Positions 972-10,490 of a stretch of 64,000 nucleotides of DNA are shown here, piece after piece. The DNA is from Burkholderiaceae bacterium (GTDB lineage: Bacteria; Pseudomonadota; Gammaproteobacteria; Burkholderiales; Burkholderiaceae_C). The translations under genes and the position numbers were made by a program. The number at the start of each line of letters is the position of its first letter. Position 1 is the stretch's first letter. A model generated the notes under the pieces. It did no database searches. It worked only from the letters and a program-made list of their open reading frames with translations, and was not told the origin of the DNA. The DNA lies in assembly GCA_018780645.1 (NCBI GenBank), contig JADMJJ010000005.1, positions 124,001 through 188,000 on the forward strand. The letters are read 5' to 3'.

Positions 972-2639
972 ATGCGATTGCGCAAGCCCGCCCTCATTGC
1001 GATCGTTGCGATGCTCGCGCTGCTCGCACTGGCCTACACCCAGCGCCTGTACCTGCTGCAGTATTCGCTCGGCTGGTACACCGACATCGTCAACCCGCGC
1101 GACCCCAACCGGCCGGTGCCCTGGGAGGCCGGACCGGCCAGCGCCAGCCTGCCGGCGGCACAGCGCCCACCCAACATCATCGTCATCATGGCCGACGACC
1201 TGGGCATCAACGATGTCACCGCCCACGGCGGCGGGCGCGCGGCCGAGGGCGTGCCGACGCCGCATATCGACAGCATCGCCCGCGATGGCGTGCGCTTCGA
1301 TCAGGGCTATGCCGGCAGCGCCGTTTGCACGGTGTCGCGCGCGGCGCTGATGACCGGTCGCTACCCCTGGCGCTTCGGCGTCGAGTTCACCCCGACACCG
1401 GGGGCGATGGCGCGTGTCGCTGGCGCGCTGTACGCCGACCCGGCACGCATCCATCCCGTCGTCGTCGATCAGGACAAGGCCGGCCAGGCCAAGGACTTCA
1501 ACGAGCTCGGCCTGCCAGGCGTCGAACAGACGGTGGCCGAGCTGCTCAAGCCGCGCGGCTACCACACCGTGCACATCGGCAAATGGCATCTGGGCAGCAC
1601 GCCCGAGATGCGGCCCAACCAGCAGGGCTTCGACGAGAGCCTGTTCATGGAGAGCGGCCTGTACCTGCCCGAGAAGGACGCCCGCGTCGTCAATTCCAAG
1701 CAGGACTTCGATCCCATCGACAAATTCCTCTGGCCAAATATGCGCTTCGGTGTCAGCTACAACGGCGGCAAATGGTTCGAGCCGAGCAAATACCTGACCG
1801 ACTACTTCACCGACGAGGCGGTGACGGCGATACGGCGCAACAAGCACCGGCCGTTCTTCCTGTTCCTCGCCCACTGGGGCGTGCACACGCCGCTGCAGGC
1901 CAGCAAGGCCGACTACGACGCGCTGCCCAACATCCCCGACCACCGCCGCCGCGTCTATGGGGCCATGGTGCGCTCGGTGGACCGCAGCGTCGGCCGCGTG
2001 CTGCAGGCGCTGAAGGACGAGGGCCTGGACGACAACACGCTGGTCATCTTCACCAGCGACAACGGCGCGCCGGGCTATATCGGCATTCCCGACGTCAACA
2101 AGCCCTTTCGCGGCTGGAAGCTGACGATGTTCCAGGGCGGCCTGCGTGTGCCCTATGTCGCCAGGTGGCCGGCGCGGATGCCGGCCGGCCAGCACTATGC
2201 ACAGGCGATCTCGAACATCGACATCCTGCCCACCGTCCTGGCTGCGGCGGGGGGCGCGCTGCCGACCGACCGGCCCATAGACGGCGTGAACTTGCTGCCC
2301 TTTCTGCAGGCCCGGCCGACCGCCACGCAAGCGCCACGGCCGCTGTTCTGGCGCGACGGCCCCTACCGCGCGGTGCAGGACGGCGGCTGGAAGCTGATCA
2401 GCGCCGAGCGGCCGAAAAAGCAATGGCTGTTCGACCTGCGGCGCGACCCGACCGAGCAGGTCAATCTGGCCGCCGATCAGCCGCTGCAATTGGCGCGGTT
2501 GCAGGCGCTGATGACGGCCCACCATGGAAGCATGCCGCCGCCGCTGTGGCCCTCCTTCATCGAGATGCCGATCAGCATCGACAAGACCTTGGACCAGAAG
2601 CTGCTGCCCCAGGATGAATACACCTACTGGTACAACTAG
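972..2639 (+). CDS. Membrane-anchored sulfatase with CTVSR active-site motif
   Basis: Hydrolyses sulfate esters if active; alkaline-phosphatase/sulfatase superfamily, 555 residues. The chosen ATG gives an N-terminal hydrophobic segment (about residues 7-22), so the protein is exported or anchored in the inner membrane facing the periplasm. Metal-binding aspartates appear in IMADDLG (Asp75, Asp76). The nucleophile motif is Cys119-Thr-Val-Ser-Arg followed by AALMTGR. HIGKWHLG and FTSDNGAPG supply the later Lys/His and Asp/Asn ligands. The maturation consensus is C-x-P/A-x-R; here Val occupies the third position. The next gene encodes an FGE that would convert Cys119 to formylglycine. Upstream in-frame codons give an arginine-rich non-signal extension, so ATG 972 is preferred. 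Confidence 0.9.
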   Translation: MRLRKPALIAIVAMLALLALAYTQRLYLLQYSLGWYTDIVNPRDPNRPVPWEAGPASASLPAAQRPPNIIVIMADDLGINDVTAHGGGRAAEGVPTPHIDSIARDGVRFDQGYAGSAVCTVSRAALMTGRYPWRFGVEFTPTPGAMARVAGALYADPARIHPVVVDQDKAGQAKDFNELGLPGVEQTVAELLKPRGYHTVHIGKWHLGSTPEMRPNQQGFDESLFMESGLYLPEKDARVVNSKQDFDPIDKFLWPNMRFGVSYNGGKWFEPSKYLTDYFTDEAVTAIRRNKHRPFFLFLAHWGVHTPLQASKADYDALPNIPDHRRRVYGAMVRSVDRSVGRVLQALKDEGLDDNTLVIFTSDNGAPGYIGIPDVNKPFRGWKLTMFQGGLRVPYVARWPARMPAGQHYAQAISNIDILPTVLAAAGGALPTDRPIDGVNLLPFLQARPTATQAPRPLFWRDGPYRAVQDGGWKLISAERPKKQWLFDLRRDPTEQVNLAADQPLQLARLQALMTAHHGSMPPPLWPSFIEMPISIDKTLDQKLLPQDEYTYWYN

Positions 2640-3591
2640 GCGGCTGTGGTGGGGCGTGAGTGCCCTGATGCTGGTGACGCTGACCACCTGGTTTGCGGCA
2701 CGGCCGGCGCCGGCCGCGCGGAGCGAGCGGCTCCATTGCGCACTGCCGGCCCAAGCCGGCAACGCTACGCATCCGGGCATGGTCTGGGTGCCGGCCGGCA
2801 GTTTCGAGATGGGCGACACCGTCTATGCCGAGGAGCAGCCGCGCCGGGGGGAAAGCGTCGAGGGCTTCTGGATGGACCGCACCGAGGTCAGCAATGCCGA
2901 GTTCGCCCGCTTCGTGGCCGCCACCGGCCATGTCACCACCGCCGAGCGCGAGGTCGATGCCGCCGCCCATCCAGGTCTGCCGCCCGAGCTGCGCCGGCCC
3001 GGCGCCGTGGTCTTCATCAGCCCGGCCAAGGTGCAGGGGCGCGACGACGTCAATCAATGGTGGCGCTACGTGGCCGGCGCCAGCTGGCGCCATCCGGGCG
3101 GTCCGGGCACCGACATCAAGGGCCGCGACAGCTTTCCAGTAGTGGCCATCAGCCATGCCGACGCCCAGGCCTATGCCCTCTGGAAGGGCCGCCAGCTGCC
3201 CACCGAGGCGCAGTGGGAATGGGCCGCCCGCGGCGCCCGCGCCGCGCCGATGCCGGCCCATGAGCAGCCGCGCGAGGCCAATACCTGGCAGGGACCGTTC
3301 CCGGTGCTCAATTCAGGCGAAGACGGCTTCATAGGTCTGGCACCCGTGGGTTGCTACTCCCCCAATGCGCTGGGTCTCTATGACCTGATCGGCAACGTCT
3401 GGGAGCTGACCGCCGATCTCTACAGCCCCGCGGCCGGCCAGGCGCGGCAGCGCGTCATCAAGGGCGGCTCCTTTCTCTGCGCGCCCAACTACTGCATGCG
3501 CTACCGCGCCGGGGCTCGCCAGCCGCAGGACGAAGATCTGGCCGCAAGTCATCTGGGATTTCGCACCGTACTGCTGGCCCCCGGGCCCTGA
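2614..3591 (+). CDS. Formylglycine-generating enzyme (SUMF1/FGE family), exported form
   Basis: Oxidises the active-site cysteine of type I sulfatases to formylglycine using O2 and a copper centre. The 325-residue protein starts at ATG 2614, overlapping the sulfatase by 26 bp. A hydrophobic segment (residues 11-27) ending in AARPAPA looks like a signal peptide or anchor. The FGE core follows: MVWVPAGSFEMG, MDRTEVSNAEFARFV, WRHPGGPGTDI, VVAISHADAQAYALW, LPTEAQWEWAARG, LIGNVWELTADLY and GGSFLCAPNYCMRYRAGAR. The cysteine pair Cys289/Cys294 has the same x4 spacing as the human catalytic pair, and the ending SHLGFRTV is typical. Many FGE-sulfatase-domain proteins lack the two cysteines; this one keeps both, so real FGE activity is likely. 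Confidence 0.9.
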   Translation: MNTPTGTTRRLWWGVSALMLVTLTTWFAARPAPAARSERLHCALPAQAGNATHPGMVWVPAGSFEMGDTVYAEEQPRRGESVEGFWMDRTEVSNAEFARFVAATGHVTTAEREVDAAAHPGLPPELRRPGAVVFISPAKVQGRDDVNQWWRYVAGASWRHPGGPGTDIKGRDSFPVVAISHADAQAYALWKGRQLPTEAQWEWAARGARAAPMPAHEQPREANTWQGPFPVLNSGEDGFIGLAPVGCYSPNALGLYDLIGNVWELTADLYSPAAGQARQRVIKGGSFLCAPNYCMRYRAGARQPQDEDLAASHLGFRTVLLAPGP

Positions 3592-3596
3592 GCCAA

Positions 3597-4970
3597 GTGG
3601 CAACACCTGCCCCCAGGCGTATCAGACATTGGCTGCTAGGCTTGGCCGCGCTGGCCGTTGTGCCTGTGTTTCTGCTCTATCTCAAGGCCGGCGACCTTCG
3701 ACTGGGCGCTGAGGCCTATCTCTACGGCTACCCGCTGGTGATGATGGACCTCACCCGCGCCCATGCGGCGCGCACCCAGGGACCGGAAAATCGGCTGCTG
3801 CGCGTGCGCAGCTTTCCCGGCGCTGACTTTCGTGATGTCGTCCGGCCCAATGTGGACACGCTGTACACCAGCGCTTTCATCGACATGGCGCAGGGGCCCT
3901 GGGTGTTCGAAATGCCGGCGAATGCGCCGCGCTACGAGCTGATGCCCTTCATGGACGCCTGGACGAATGTATTCGCCGCGCCCGGCACACGCCTGAATGG
4001 CGGCCAGGGTGCGAGGCTGTTGCTGGCCGCTGCCGACTGGCAGGGCGAGGTGCCGGCCGGGCTGAGCCTGGTGCGCGCGCCGACCCGCATCGTCTGGCTG
4101 ATCGGCCGCACGCAGACTCGCGGCGCGGCCGACTACCCACTGGTGCACCGGCTCCAGGATGGTCTGACGCTTCGCCACCTGACCGATTGGCAGACCGGGC
4201 GCAGCGCTTCCGTCCCGGCCTGGAAGGCCGAGCCTCCCGCGTCGCCGCCGATTGCGCAGATGCAGGCCATGGCCACGACCGAGTTCTTCGCCAGGCTGGC
4301 GCGGCTGATGGTGGACAACCCGCCGGCCGCCATGGACGCCCCCGTGCTGCAGAAGCTGGAGCAGCTGGGCCTGAGGCCAGGTCAGGCACTCGACTGGACG
4401 CTGATGCAGCGCGGCGAGATGGCTCTGGCTCGCTGGCTGGCCGAGCGCCGCGTGGCCAGCGAACTGGCCAAGCCGCGCGAGCTCGTCAATGGTTGGTCAA
4501 CGCCGCCAGCGCTGCTGGGACGCTACGGCCAGGATTACAACACCCGCGCGGTGGTGGCCATGGTGGGCCTGGGCGCCAATCTGCCGGCCGATGCGATGTA
4601 CCCCAGCGCCCGCGTCGATGGCCAGGGCCGGCCGTTGAACGGCAGCCGGCGCTACCGGCTGCACTTCAAGGCCGGCACCCTGCCCCCGGTGCGGGCCTTC
4701 TGGTCCGTCACCGCCTATAGCGCCGACGACTTCCTGATCGCCAATGCGCTGCAGCGCCATGCGCTGGGCGACCGCGATCCGCTGGTCTTCAACACCGACG
4801 GCTCGCTCGATCTGTGGCTGCAGGCCGAAGCACCGACCCAGGCGCCGACGAGCAACTGGCTGCCGGTGCGCCGGGGCGAGGACTTTCTGCTCAATGCCAG
4901 ACTCTACTGGCCCAGGCACGAGGCGCTGGACGGCCGCTGGACGATGCCGGCCGTCGAGCGCCTGGATTGA
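3597..4970 (+). CDS. DUF1254/DUF1214 domain protein, exported
   Basis: Starts with GTG 3597, five bases after the FGE stop. The N-terminus has basic residues followed by a hydrophobic segment (about residues 13-26), so the 457-residue protein is probably periplasmic or inner-membrane anchored. The N-terminal half carries the DUF1254 signature (EAYLYGYPLVMMDLTR, VVRPNVDTLYTSAFIDM). The C-terminal part matches DUF1214 (PPVRAFWSVTAYSADDFLI, NWLPVRRGEDFLLNARLYWP). The family is widespread in bacteria and uncharacterised biochemically as far as I know. Position suggests the same operon as the sulfatase and FGE. Its stop codon abuts the stop of the minus-strand gene that follows. Confidence 0.88.
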   Translation: MATPAPRRIRHWLLGLAALAVVPVFLLYLKAGDLRLGAEAYLYGYPLVMMDLTRAHAARTQGPENRLLRVRSFPGADFRDVVRPNVDTLYTSAFIDMAQGPWVFEMPANAPRYELMPFMDAWTNVFAAPGTRLNGGQGARLLLAAADWQGEVPAGLSLVRAPTRIVWLIGRTQTRGAADYPLVHRLQDGLTLRHLTDWQTGRSASVPAWKAEPPASPPIAQMQAMATTEFFARLARLMVDNPPAAMDAPVLQKLEQLGLRPGQALDWTLMQRGEMALARWLAERRVASELAKPRELVNGWSTPPALLGRYGQDYNTRAVVAMVGLGANLPADAMYPSARVDGQGRPLNGSRRYRLHFKAGTLPPVRAFWSVTAYSADDFLIANALQRHALGDRDPLVFNTDGSLDLWLQAEAPTQAPTSNWLPVRRGEDFLLNARLYWPRHEALDGRWTMPAVERLD

Positions 4971-7428: not shown

Positions 7429-8718
7429 ATGGGCTTGAAGCAGTGGCTGATGCCTGCGATCAGCGAGCGCCTGCTGTCGCGCGAACGGCTGCTGCAACGG
7501 CGCGCCAGCGCCGAGGCCGCGCGGCGGCGCGCCGGCCAGCCCCATCTGCTGCATTACTTCCATCAGGTCGACGATCCCTACAGCGCGCTGGCCGCGGCCT
7601 GCCTGCCGGAGCTGCTGTCACGCTATGACGTGGCGCTGCAGGCCCATGTGGTCGGCCCGCCGACGGACAGCGCCGCGCCGGAACGCGAGCGGCTGATCGC
7701 CTACAGCCGCCGCGATGCGCAGCTGCTGGCTAGGCGCTGGGGGCTGGACTTCAGCGATCCTGGCCAGCAGCCCGCGCGGCAGCAGGTGGCGCAGACCACC
7801 GCGTTGCTGGTGGGCGCCGAGCAGCAAGGCCGGTTCGCCGCGCTCGCCGGGCCGTTGTCGGCGGCGCTGTGGCGTGGCGCGAGCTTGGAACTGCCGCTGA
7901 CGCCGGCCGCACCCGAGATCGTACAAAGGCATCTGGCCGAGTCTGCCGCCCTTCGCCAGCGCCTGGGCCACTACCTCGGCGCCACCTTCTTCTATGCCGG
8001 CGAGTGGTACTGGGGGCTGGACCGCCTGCACCATCTGGAGCGGCGCCTGCAGGCGCTGGGCGCGAACCGCGGCGAGGTCCGCAGCCCGCTGTTCCAGCCC
8101 GACGCCGATCTGAGCGAAGCCGTCGCACTGGACGCGCCGCCGCCAATAGACTTCTTCTTCTCGCTGCGCAGCCCCTACTCGGCCATCGTCGCGCCGCGCG
8201 TGTTCGAGCTCGGCCGCCTGACCGGCGCGCAAGTGCGCCTGCGCTATCTGCTGCCGATGGTGATGCGCGGCCTGCCGGTGCCAAAGGCCAAGCGCAGCTA
8301 CATCGCCGCCGACGCGGCGCGTGAGGCCTTCGAGCGCGGCATTCCGTTCGGCCGCCTGAACGATCCGGTGGGCAGGCCCACCGAGCGCGGCCTGGCCCTG
8401 ATTCCCCATGCCGAACGCCAGGGTCTGGGCCAGCGCTATGTGCTGGCCTTCATGCACGGCGTCTGGGCCCAGGGGGAGGATGCCGGCAGCGATCGCGGCC
8501 TGCGCCGCATCGTCGAGGCCGCAGGCCTGTCCTGGGACGACGCCCGCGCCGCGCTGCAGGACGAGGCCTGGCGCGACACCGCCGAACGCAACCGCGAGGC
8601 GCTGTTCGCGCTGGGCCTGTGGGGTGTGCCCTCGTTCCAGGTCGGCGCGCTGGCGGTCTGGGGCCAGGACCGGCTGGGCCTGGTGCAGCAGGCGCTGCTT
8701 ACCTCGGGGGTCAGGTGA
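7429..8718 (+). CDS. Two-lobed DsbA-family / 2-hydroxychromene-2-carboxylate isomerase-like protein
   Basis: 429 residues, about twice the length of a single HCCA isomerase (kappa-class GST fold). The C-terminal lobe (about 236-429) begins IDFFFSLRSPYSAIVAPRVFEL, the thioredoxin-fold strand and glutathione-serine region, and ends GLWGVPSFQVGALAVWGQDRL with the expected cis-Pro (GVPSF). The N-terminal lobe (about 40-215) has a parallel start, HYFHQVDDPYSALAAACLPEL, so the protein looks like a tandem duplication with a diverged first lobe. Neither lobe has a CxxC, so disulfide oxidase activity is unlikely; glutathione-dependent isomerisation or conjugation is more plausible. No signal peptide is evident. 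The stop overlaps the next ATG. Confidence 0.8.
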   Translation: MGLKQWLMPAISERLLSRERLLQRRASAEAARRRAGQPHLLHYFHQVDDPYSALAAACLPELLSRYDVALQAHVVGPPTDSAAPERERLIAYSRRDAQLLARRWGLDFSDPGQQPARQQVAQTTALLVGAEQQGRFAALAGPLSAALWRGASLELPLTPAAPEIVQRHLAESAALRQRLGHYLGATFFYAGEWYWGLDRLHHLERRLQALGANRGEVRSPLFQPDADLSEAVALDAPPPIDFFFSLRSPYSAIVAPRVFELGRLTGAQVRLRYLLPMVMRGLPVPKAKRSYIAADAAREAFERGIPFGRLNDPVGRPTERGLALIPHAERQGLGQRYVLAFMHGVWAQGEDAGSDRGLRRIVEAAGLSWDDARAALQDEAWRDTAERNREALFALGLWGVPSFQVGALAVWGQDRLGLVQQALLTSGVR

Positions 8719-10490
8719 TGTCTGGCCACAGTCGGCGCGCCGCTCTGGCACTGCTGCTGGCCTGCGCCGGCACGGCAATGGCCCAGCCGCAGCGGCCGAA
8801 CATCGTGCTGCTGCTGGCCGACGACTGGGGCTTCAGCGATGTGGGCGCCTTCGGCGGCGAGATCGCCACGCCCCATCTCGACGAGCTGGCGCGGCGCGGC
8901 ATGCGCTTCTCGAACTTTCACGTCACCGCCTCCTGCTCGCCGACGCGGGCCATGTTGCTCACGGGGGTGGACAACCACCGCAACGGCGTGGGCAATATGC
9001 GCGAGACGATTCCGCAGTCCCACGTCGGCAAGCCGGGCTATCTGAGCGTGCTGGACCGCAATGTCGTCACCGTCGCCAGCCTGCTGCGCGACGGCGGCTA
9101 CCGCACCTATGTGGCCGGCAAATGGCATGTGGGCAAGGAGCCGCACAACCTGCCGCCGGCACGCGGCTTCGACCGCTCGCTGGTGCAGGGCGACAGCGGC
9201 AGCGACAACTGGGAGACCGGCAAGCGCTACCTGGACCTGACCGACAGGGTCTACTGGTACGAGGACGGCAAGGAGGTGGTCATGCCGACCGACTTCTACT
9301 CCTCGCAGTTCTACGTCGACAAGACCATCGAATACCTCAAGGCCGATGCCGCCCAGGCCAAGCCCTTCTTCGCCTACATAGGTTTCCAGTCCAACCACAT
9401 TCCGCTGCAGGCGCCGGCCGAGTTCATCGCCAAATACCGCGGCTTCTACAACAACGGCTGGGCGGCGCTGCGCCAGGCCCGGCGCGACAAGGCCGTGGCC
9501 CTTGGCCTGGTGCCGGCCAGCACGCAGCTCGCCAGCGTCGCCACCACGACCGACTGGGATGCGCTGAGCGACACCGACAAGGCCTACCAGGCGCGACGCA
9601 TGGAGGTCTACGCGGCCATGGCCGAGGCGATGGACTTCCATGTCGGCCGCCTGGTCGCCCACCTGAAGGCCACGGGCGCCTACGACAACACGGTGTTCCT
9701 GTTCCTGTCGGACAACGGTGCCGAGGGCTCCGACCCCTATGCCATCACCTTGGGCCGCTGGTGGCTGGACCAGAACTACCGGCGCGACATCGACTCGCTG
9801 GGCGCCAAGGGCGCCTACACGGTGATTGGCCCGAGCTGGGGCAGCGCCGCCACCTCGCCGCTGAGCACCTACAAGTTCTACGCCGGCGAGGGCGGCCTGC
9901 GCGTGCCGCTGATCGTGGCCGGCGTGGCGGGCATGCCGACCAACCGCATCCAGCCGGACTTCACCCATGTCAGCGACATCGTGCCGACGCTGCTGGATCT
10001 GGCCGGCGTGGCGCGGCCGGGCAGCAGCTACCAGGGCCGGCCGGTCGAGCCGCTGACCGGCACCAGCCTGCTGCCGGTGCTGACCGGCGCGGCCGGGCCG
10101 GTCCATGGCCCGGACGAGCCGATCGGCTACGAGCTCTCGGGCAACCAGGCGCTGTTCAAGGGCGATCTGAAACTGGTGAAAAACCTGCCGCCGCTGGGCG
10201 ATGGTCAATGGCATCTATACGACATCCGCCAGGATCCCGGCGAAACCCGCGATCTGCAGCAGCAGCGGCCCGAGGCCTTCCGGGCCATGCAGACCGACTA
10301 TGCCGCCTATGCCAGGGCCAATGGCGTGCTGCCCATGCCCGAGGGCTACGAGCCCACGCACCAGGTGCTGATCAATGCGCTGGTCAACGTCTATGTGCCG
10401 CGCCTGGCCCTGCCGGCGCTGGCCCTGCTGGGCGCGATCGCGCTGTTGATCTGGAAGCTGCGGCGGCGCAGGCGTCAGCGCCGGTCATGA
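8718..10490 (+). CDS. Sulfatase (CSPTR type) with signal peptide and C-terminal anchor
   Basis: A second type I sulfatase, 590 residues. ATG 8718 overlaps the previous stop and starts a signal peptide ending near TAMAQ (residue 23). Motifs in order: LLLADDWGFSD (Asp35, Asp36), Cys73-Ser-Pro-Thr-Arg followed by AMLLTG, YVAGKWHVG, FLSDNGAEGSD and GEGGLRVPLIV. Cys73 in a canonical CxPxR context should be matured by the FGE at 2614-3591. The C-terminus has a hydrophobic helix followed by a run of Arg/Lys residues, so the enzyme is probably held at the inner membrane with its catalytic domain in the periplasm. It differs clearly in sequence and length from the first sulfatase. Confidence 0.92.
   Translation: MSGHSRRAALALLLACAGTAMAQPQRPNIVLLLADDWGFSDVGAFGGEIATPHLDELARRGMRFSNFHVTASCSPTRAMLLTGVDNHRNGVGNMRETIPQSHVGKPGYLSVLDRNVVTVASLLRDGGYRTYVAGKWHVGKEPHNLPPARGFDRSLVQGDSGSDNWETGKRYLDLTDRVYWYEDGKEVVMPTDFYSSQFYVDKTIEYLKADAAQAKPFFAYIGFQSNHIPLQAPAEFIAKYRGFYNNGWAALRQARRDKAVALGLVPASTQLASVATTTDWDALSDTDKAYQARRMEVYAAMAEAMDFHVGRLVAHLKATGAYDNTVFLFLSDNGAEGSDPYAITLGRWWLDQNYRRDIDSLGAKGAYTVIGPSWGSAATSPLSTYKFYAGEGGLRVPLIVAGVAGMPTNRIQPDFTHVSDIVPTLLDLAGVARPGSSYQGRPVEPLTGTSLLPVLTGAAGPVHGPDEPIGYELSGNQALFKGDLKLVKNLPPLGDGQWHLYDIRQDPGETRDLQQQRPEAFRAMQTDYAAYARANGVLPMPEGYEPTHQVLINALVNVYVPRLALPALALLGAIALLIWKLRRRRRQRRS

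Follow-up and report, generated by a model that had tools for sequence, protein, structure and literature searches.

A formylglycine-generating enzyme with an N-terminal export segment, beside an anchored CTVSR sulfatase, and its probable action in the periplasm

Formylglycine-generating enzymes (FGEs) are assigned to the cytosol in prokaryotes and to the endoplasmic reticulum (ER) in eukaryotes (PMC4505483; papers given by PMC number are cited from excerpts of their text). A 64,000-nucleotide stretch of a Burkholderiaceae genome (GCA_018780645.1, contig JADMJJ010000005.1, positions 124,001 to 188,000), called the window below, encodes an FGE that starts with a hydrophobic segment, and the question is on which side of the membrane this enzyme meets its sulfatases. 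The initial annotation suggested that the sulfatases are matured after export, in the periplasm. Judging from sequence comparisons, the enzyme is very probably located outside the cytoplasm, and sulfatase maturation probably occurs on the periplasmic side; the conserved segment, the charges around it, lipobox-like variants, residue Cys247 and the pairing with Sec-exported or anchored sulfatases all lend support to that suggestion. The features of the enzyme are as follows.

2614..3591, + strand: FGE with export segment, 325 residues (open reading frame (ORF) call, Pfam, structure match)
2644..2700, + strand: hydrophobic export or anchor segment of the FGE, residues 11-29 (hydropathy, AlphaFold helix 7-29, charge)
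2737..2739, + strand: Cys42, present in all 55 aligned exported FGEs and suggested to form a disulfide with Cys247 (alignment)
3352..3354, + strand: Cys247, which marks the exported clade and is likewise present in all 55 (alignment)
3478..3480, + strand: Cys289, catalytic and copper-binding by homology (alignment to human FGE)
3493..3495, + strand: Cys294, catalytic and copper-binding by homology (alignment to human FGE)

The ORF, its coordinates and both catalytic cysteines were found on re-reading the sequence just as they had been described. The FGE-sulfatase domain (PF03781, Pfam) covers residues 53-319 and profile positions 2-254 of 255 (E 9.7e-67), and of the solved structures human FGE is the nearest (E 5.9e-57); its GGSYMCHRSYC aligns with GGSFLCAPNYC of the window enzyme at the catalytic C-x4-C pair. 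An AlphaFold model built on 55 aligned sequences reaches a mean predicted local distance difference test (pLDDT) score of 85. It shows residues 7-29 as a helix, and its remainder superposes on human FGE (Z 29.7, 248 residues, root mean square deviation 2.7). The radical-SAM maturase family TIGR03942 is absent from the seven NCBIfam families matched at E <= 0.001. By its domain and its catalytic pair, the ORF is thus classified as a true FGE. Its closest named relative, at 93% identity, is from Roseateles toxinivorans.

A hydrophobic run occupies residues 11-27 (LWWGVSALMLVTLTTWF), with Arg9-Arg10 ahead of it and AARPAPAAR after it. The hydrophobic stretch and A-x-A motif of the initial annotation were thereby confirmed, the motif being Ala32-Pro-Ala34. 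Over the 150 nucleotides past the sulfatase stop, the window and R. toxinivorans differ at 33 positions, 20 of which fall on the third base of a codon in the FGE frame (p 0.001), a bias which argues that the N-terminus is translated as protein. Export by the twin-arginine (Tat) route was rejected as unlikely, because the twin arginines are not conserved: in R. toxinivorans they are replaced by Arg-Leu. In many relatives the segment, judged by eye, looks more like an anchor than like a cleaved signal peptide.

Three collections of loci were used for comparison. The related set holds the best 80 loci among 562 relatives confirmed in one scan of species genomes. The phylum sample came from a draw of 397 Pseudomonadota genomes, 71 of which, including that of the window, had a match at E <= 1e-30; the 86 further matches fetched yielded 86 FGEs that have the cysteine pair, and this sample is biased toward relatives of the window enzyme. 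The second sample was taken from new genomes of two classes, already sampled ones excluded, in which 48/389 and 17/377 had a match; its 49 loci gave 47 FGEs with the pair, L235 and L240 being dropped since their cysteine pair was not matched. No fetched locus is common to the phylum and second samples; the genes at L214 and L216 of the second sample are also those at L062 and L090 in the related set. The pair was present in 170 of the 171 matches of the related and phylum sets plus the window (the one miss is a fragment) and in 47/49 of the second sample. Export was called by a hydropathy rule rather than SignalP, with a cut of 1.6 that was set after the values had been inspected. All but one of the 78 exported calls in the related set follow the rule; L027, below the cut at 1.56, was assigned by hand. 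L257, called cytoplasmic at 1.13, may carry a weak signal.

Export segments are common in all three collections. Of the 83 FGE ORFs at the 80 related loci that have the cysteine pair (the second piece of L085 is left out of these counts), 78 carry a segment, which has been retained although the N-termini have otherwise diverged; the other five are signal-less FGEs of the Caulobacteraceae loci L081, L083 and L086 and the cut or broken genes of L085 and L089. In the phylum sample 37 of 86 FGEs carry a segment and 49 do not, and in the second sample the numbers are 24 of 47 and 23. The view, taken in the initial annotation, that bacterial FGE is mainly cytoplasmic agrees with the cytosolic location given in PMC4505483. 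Lipobox-like matches occur in 3/78, 18/37 and 8/24 of the exported FGEs of the related, phylum and second sets, some of them doubtful (e.g., L140). Excluding the window enzyme, the N-terminal side of the segment is the more positive one in 124 of 139 exported FGEs (69/78, 34/37 and 21/24 by set), with 14 equal and one, of the related set, reversed. These charges favour an outside catalytic domain, which would most likely be held by the helix or a lipid, or released by cleavage.

Exported and signal-less FGEs also keep different company. The nearest sulfatase within 3 kb was classed as Sec-exported or transmembrane (Sec/TM), Tat or unexported. Exported FGEs of the phylum sample have 27 Sec/TM neighbours, one Tat and no unexported one, nine being without a sulfatase, whereas cytoplasmic FGEs have 5 Sec/TM, 12 Tat and 18 unexported neighbours and 14 are without (Fisher p 1e-11, relatedness ignored). 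The single Tat neighbour, at L170, lies on the opposite strand 2.7 kb away. When all sulfatases within 3 kb are counted, the Sec/TM, Tat and unexported numbers are 33, 1 and 1 for exported and 7, 12 and 19 for cytoplasmic FGEs. A looser twin-arginine pattern had at first given 23 Sec/TM, 4 Tat and 10 without for exported FGEs, and 6 Sec/TM, 12 Tat, 18 unexported and 13 without for cytoplasmic ones; it was tightened after the neighbours at L124, L128 and L160 came out as Tat, and the choice of domain hits was changed too. With the script frozen, the second sample gave 13 Sec/TM, no Tat or unexported neighbour and 11 without for exported FGEs, against 8 Sec/TM, 6 Tat, 4 unexported and 5 without for cytoplasmic ones (p 0.0013, relatedness again ignored). 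Pooling the two samples, a Sec-exported or anchored sulfatase adjoins 40 of 41 exported FGEs with a neighbour, and a Tat or unexported one adjoins 40 of 53 such cytoplasmic FGEs. At the related loci, exported FGEs have 48 Sec/TM, one Tat and one unexported neighbour, and 27 are without.

The association is directional and repeated, and it is modest once relatedness is removed. On a tree of 111 sulfatase rows, built with a simpler, non-mixture model, 11 independent contrasts gave on average 5.5 concordant, 0 opposite and 5.5 tied outcomes (median p 0.031, values from 0.031 to 0.125); with a previous tree of 80 rows there were eight contrasts, and the median p was 0.0625. The most telling cases for sorting by compartment appear to be the Caulobacteraceae loci L081, L083 and L086, which carry both types: a signal-less FGE stands by a sulfatase with the twin-arginine sequence DRRSLLIG, and a lipoprotein-type FGE lies a few kb away. 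The script classed these DRRSLLIG sulfatases as 'none', and they were set to not-Sec by eye in the trees.

A cysteine also marks the exported clade. In the alignment, the phylum sample shows Cys247 in 27/37 exported and 0/49 cytoplasmic FGEs, and the second sample shows it in 20/24 and 2/23, respectively. For the two cytoplasmic ones, L225 and L226, an export signal lies just upstream of the called gene in a different frame, so the marker appears to flag genes missed by the N-terminal rule. Among 36 exported FGEs of the phylum sample, 22 have both Cys247 and a cysteine before the core, nine have neither, and one and four have a single one of the two; the count of pre-core cysteines left out L085, L089, L195, L198 and L208, while that of Cys247 took all 86 + 47 FGEs. 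The simplest reading, argued from conservation, is a proposed Cys42-Cys247 disulfide formed in an oxidising compartment. On an FGE tree of 106 rows (including 15 chosen relatives plus L081, L083 and L086 from the related set, and excluding L085, L089, L198 and L208), 48 exported FGEs including that of the window form one group with a Shimodaira-Hasegawa-like approximate likelihood-ratio test (SH-aLRT) support of 98, and seven others form a second group (SH-aLRT 96).

The FGE of the window is encoded directly after its presumed partner, a sulfatase whose 3' end contains the FGE start: the ATG at 2614 precedes the sulfatase stop (2637-2639), and the two genes overlap by 26 bp.

972..2639, + strand: sulfatase 1, 555 residues, FGE partner with N-terminal hydrophobic anchor and CTVSR (Pfam Sulfatase, 3.5e-55)
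990..1037, + strand: hydrophobic N-terminal anchor, roughly residues 7-22 of sulfatase 1, with YSLGWYTD after it (hydropathy, conservation)
1326..1340, + strand: CTVSR, site of Cys119, which is expected to become formylglycine; Val stands for consensus Pro/Ala

Among solved structures, sulfatase 1 best matches a kappa-carrageenan S1 sulfatase (E 9.6e-79). Because its ADD, GKWH and SDNG stretches, known sulfatase motifs, are intact, sulfatase 1 is probably not a dead enzyme. YSLGWYTD is kept in all 24 relatives with CxVxR or CxIxR, which suggests that the anchor is not cleaved. Valine or isoleucine at +2 was found in the nearest sulfatases of exported FGEs (24/51 in the related set, 5/28 in the phylum sample, 0/13 in the second) and in none of those of cytoplasmic FGEs (0/3, 0/35 and 0/18, or 0/56 in total). 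CTVSR or CTISR and CAITR or CAVTR take the place of CxPxR in the window, at related loci within L013-L092, and at L133, L139, L140, L144 and L160. The initial annotation had also ascribed signal sequences to the sulfatases; sulfatase 1 has an N-terminal anchor and a second sulfatase of the window a signal sequence. What goes beyond that annotation is the clade of exported FGEs, which is widespread by these samples, the seemingly anchored CTVSR partner, and the finding that exported and cytoplasmic FGEs can share one locus.

These observations can be combined into the following scheme. The N-terminal helix would keep the FGE in the inner membrane, or cleavage at Ala-Pro-Ala would set it free, and either way the catalytic domain would lie in the periplasm. 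The unfolded chain of the anchored sulfatase 1 would be delivered by Sec to the same side of the membrane, and there the FGE, copper-loaded and using oxygen, would convert Cys119 of CTVSR to formylglycine before the sulfatase folds; sulfatase 2 of the window, also exported, would perhaps be served as well. A cytoplasmic FGE, by contrast, would serve sulfatases that fold in the cytoplasm, and the exported type would parallel the FGE of the ER. The ORF, the catalytic cysteines, the export segment, the gene overlap, the conservation, the Cys247 marker and the neighbour association can be read from the sequences themselves, whereas we infer the orientation, the disulfide, the copper loading, the periplasmic reaction and the acceptance of valine at +2. 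FGE depends on copper (PMC4505483), and the periplasm would be a good site for loading it. More broadly, it is about an even question whether bacteria hold two parallel systems divided by folding compartment: signal-less FGEs for unexported and Tat sulfatases, and a tethered or lipoprotein FGE clade with its own disulfide for Sec substrates, ER-like and with the motif widened to CxVxR/CxIxR.

The alternatives concern the start codon, the place of reaction and the nature of the enzyme. If the start were misannotated, the FGE could be an ordinary cytoplasmic enzyme, and a start mapped downstream of the segment had been named at the outset as one finding that would overturn its export. Besides the ATG at 2614 and one in-frame start farther upstream, three starts do lie within the segment (residues 15, 19 and 21), and by eye no strong ribosome-binding site precedes 2614; but these internal starts would only shorten the segment, leaving part of it, and no ATG, GTG or TTG was found in the window between the segment and the FGE core. 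Loss of the whole segment would require a start at the core Met (residue 56), which would delete Cys42 too. This absence of an intervening start holds in only 28/78, 13/37 and 11/24 exported FGEs of the related, phylum and second sets, so it is not a general argument. Given also the third-position bias across the N-terminus and the conservation of the segment and Cys42, a misplaced start seems very improbable. A different job for an exported protein of FGE fold, like those of PvdO, PorK or OCTIN, seems just as improbable: such proteins without a sulfatase role do exist (OCTIN, PMC5915273), but OCTIN lacks the catalytic cysteines according to that source, whereas the window enzyme has both and its gene overlaps that of a sulfatase. 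It is unlikely, though somewhat less remote, that the FGE, despite its export segment, acts on the sulfatase while both are still in the cytoplasm or at the translocon's cytoplasmic mouth, with export following afterwards. The substrates of FGE are unfolded chains, and 13 of 53 signal-less FGEs with a neighbour adjoin Sec/TM sulfatases, both of which suit modification before export; but an FGE bound for export should itself be unfolded prior to translocation, the Cys42/Cys247 pair and the lipoprotein-like variants indicate a protein working outside, and an unexported sulfatase is nearest to 0/41 exported FGEs in the two samples.

Maturation in the periplasm has a number of observations to its disadvantage. 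The charge difference across the segment of the window FGE itself is small (+3 vs +2), and the hydropathy values flanking the cut lie close together, at 1.44 and 1.60. Sec/TM sulfatases stand beside 5/35 cytoplasmic FGEs in the phylum sample and 8/18 in the second, which also leaves room for maturation in the cytoplasm ahead of Sec export. Among the eight are three FGEs whose assignment to the 23 cytoplasmic ones is doubtful: L225 and L226 have the out-of-frame export signal described above, and from L249 the script had trimmed off an in-frame hydrophobic segment. All three were kept in the counts, to the disadvantage of the periplasmic reading. Cys247 is missing from 10/37 exported FGEs of the phylum sample, and a pre-core cysteine without Cys247 occurs in 13/47 cytoplasmic FGEs and is hence not specific. 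Location switches just twice on the FGE tree, so the neighbour association has no independent power there. CTVSR deviates from the published sulfatase signature, (C/S)-X-(P/A)-X-R (PMC6189696).

The main awkward fact comes from the rest of the genome. Seven PF00884 matches were found, four with cysteine at the signature, and three of these four (sulfatase 1, sulfatase 2 and L004) have an export signal. The fourth, L005, is a signal-less sulfatase-family enzyme with CGPSR, and would be beyond the reach of an FGE that is only exported. A second, cytoplasmic FGE in this genome was considered and rejected: the eight PF03781 matches lie in six ORFs, and the other five lack the C-x4-C pair. No radical-SAM maturase was found in the window genome at E <= 0.001. 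Relatives of L005 occur in two of 20 other genomes, which were picked for showing no FGE match in the phylum scan; these two, G284 and G325, have CVPSR and CGASR motifs, and in a third copy, L212, the signature was not matched by the pattern. No FGE with the cysteine pair was seen in either genome among the best FGE-fold match of each and one more that were read, shorter partial ones being left unread, and a search of both for a radical-SAM maturase found none. E. coli forms formylglycine via machinery described as unidentified, and unmodified choline sulfatase still turns over (PMC6189696). With this precedent, L005 may be independent of the window FGE, though it could still rely on it.

Compared with known systems, the enzyme stands closest to human FGE (SUMF1), which shares the fold, the catalytic cysteine pair and, very probably, the extra-cytoplasmic site (PMC4505483). 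The human enzyme has a cleaved ER signal, an N-terminal extension and two disulfides (PMC7279497), and Ala at the position of Cys247; the window enzyme has instead a membrane helix and the Cys42/Cys247 pair. The FGEs of Streptomyces coelicolor and Thermomonospora curvata are bacterial copper enzymes (PMC4505483, PMC7279497) of the same fold (Z about 28-29), cytosolic according to PMC4505483, without the export segment and Cys42/Cys247 seen here. OCTIN of Terriglobus, an FGE fold lacking the catalytic cysteines, was shown to be periplasmic in E. coli (PMC5915273). Both OCTIN and PorK/GldK, which also has the FGE fold and of which PorK is a lipoprotein by name, are structural proteins, unlike the window FGE. 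PvdO likewise has the FGE fold (Z 21.4); it is exported to the periplasm, where it acts in pyoverdine maturation, and is not linked to sulfatases. PvdO and PorK are not known to have a catalytic cysteine pair. Among the bufferins, a family with Sec-dependent signal peptides, a Buf1/cytochrome/FGE fusion has been described (PMC12452194). Neither an exported catalytic FGE nor sulfatase maturation in the periplasm was found to be reported among the matches listed for the excerpted open-licence PMC literature, a search in which subscription papers were not covered.

If many Pseudomonadota FGEs act in the periplasm, the assignment of prokaryotic FGE to the cytosol (PMC4505483) would fail as a rule. 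Sulfatase folding, copper supply and oxidative folding would then be coupled in one compartment, and predictions of active sulfatases per genome would change. Aldehyde-tag engineering in the periplasm of E. coli may also gain disulfide-containing FGEs and a new tag, CTVSR.

Two further features lie downstream of the FGE gene.

3597..4970, + strand: DUF1254/DUF1214 protein, gene after the FGE (Pfam; relative at 25/80 related loci, E <= 1e-25)
8718..10490, + strand: sulfatase 2, with CSPTR, N-terminal signal sequence and hydrophobic C-terminal tail, a possible second client

The downstream genes also include one for a TetR regulator, encoded on the opposite strand, and those for a Phenol_MetA_deg family protein and a DsbA-domain protein, and together they may serve the uptake and use of a sulfated compound. 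Sulfatase 2 ends in hydrophobic residues and then several arginines in a row, which suggests a C-terminal membrane anchor.

Other FGE-fold proteins were noted along the way. In the window genome, L008 (C5:119290-120171) looks exported and lacks the catalytic cysteines (GGSWHTWAFYARSSYR), as do L262, L263 and L264 from two genomes of the same family. L009 (C113:105196-105843) belongs to a 761-residue frame with a C-terminal FGE-fold domain without C-x4-C and a long, unlike N-terminal part. Several signal-less FGEs (L194, L196, L197, L199-L203, L205-L207, L243, L244, L247, L256, L258, L260 and L261) have an N-terminal CC or C-x-C, which recalls the pair in the human N-terminal extension (PMC7279497) and is possibly a metal site; those included in the FGE tree cluster together.

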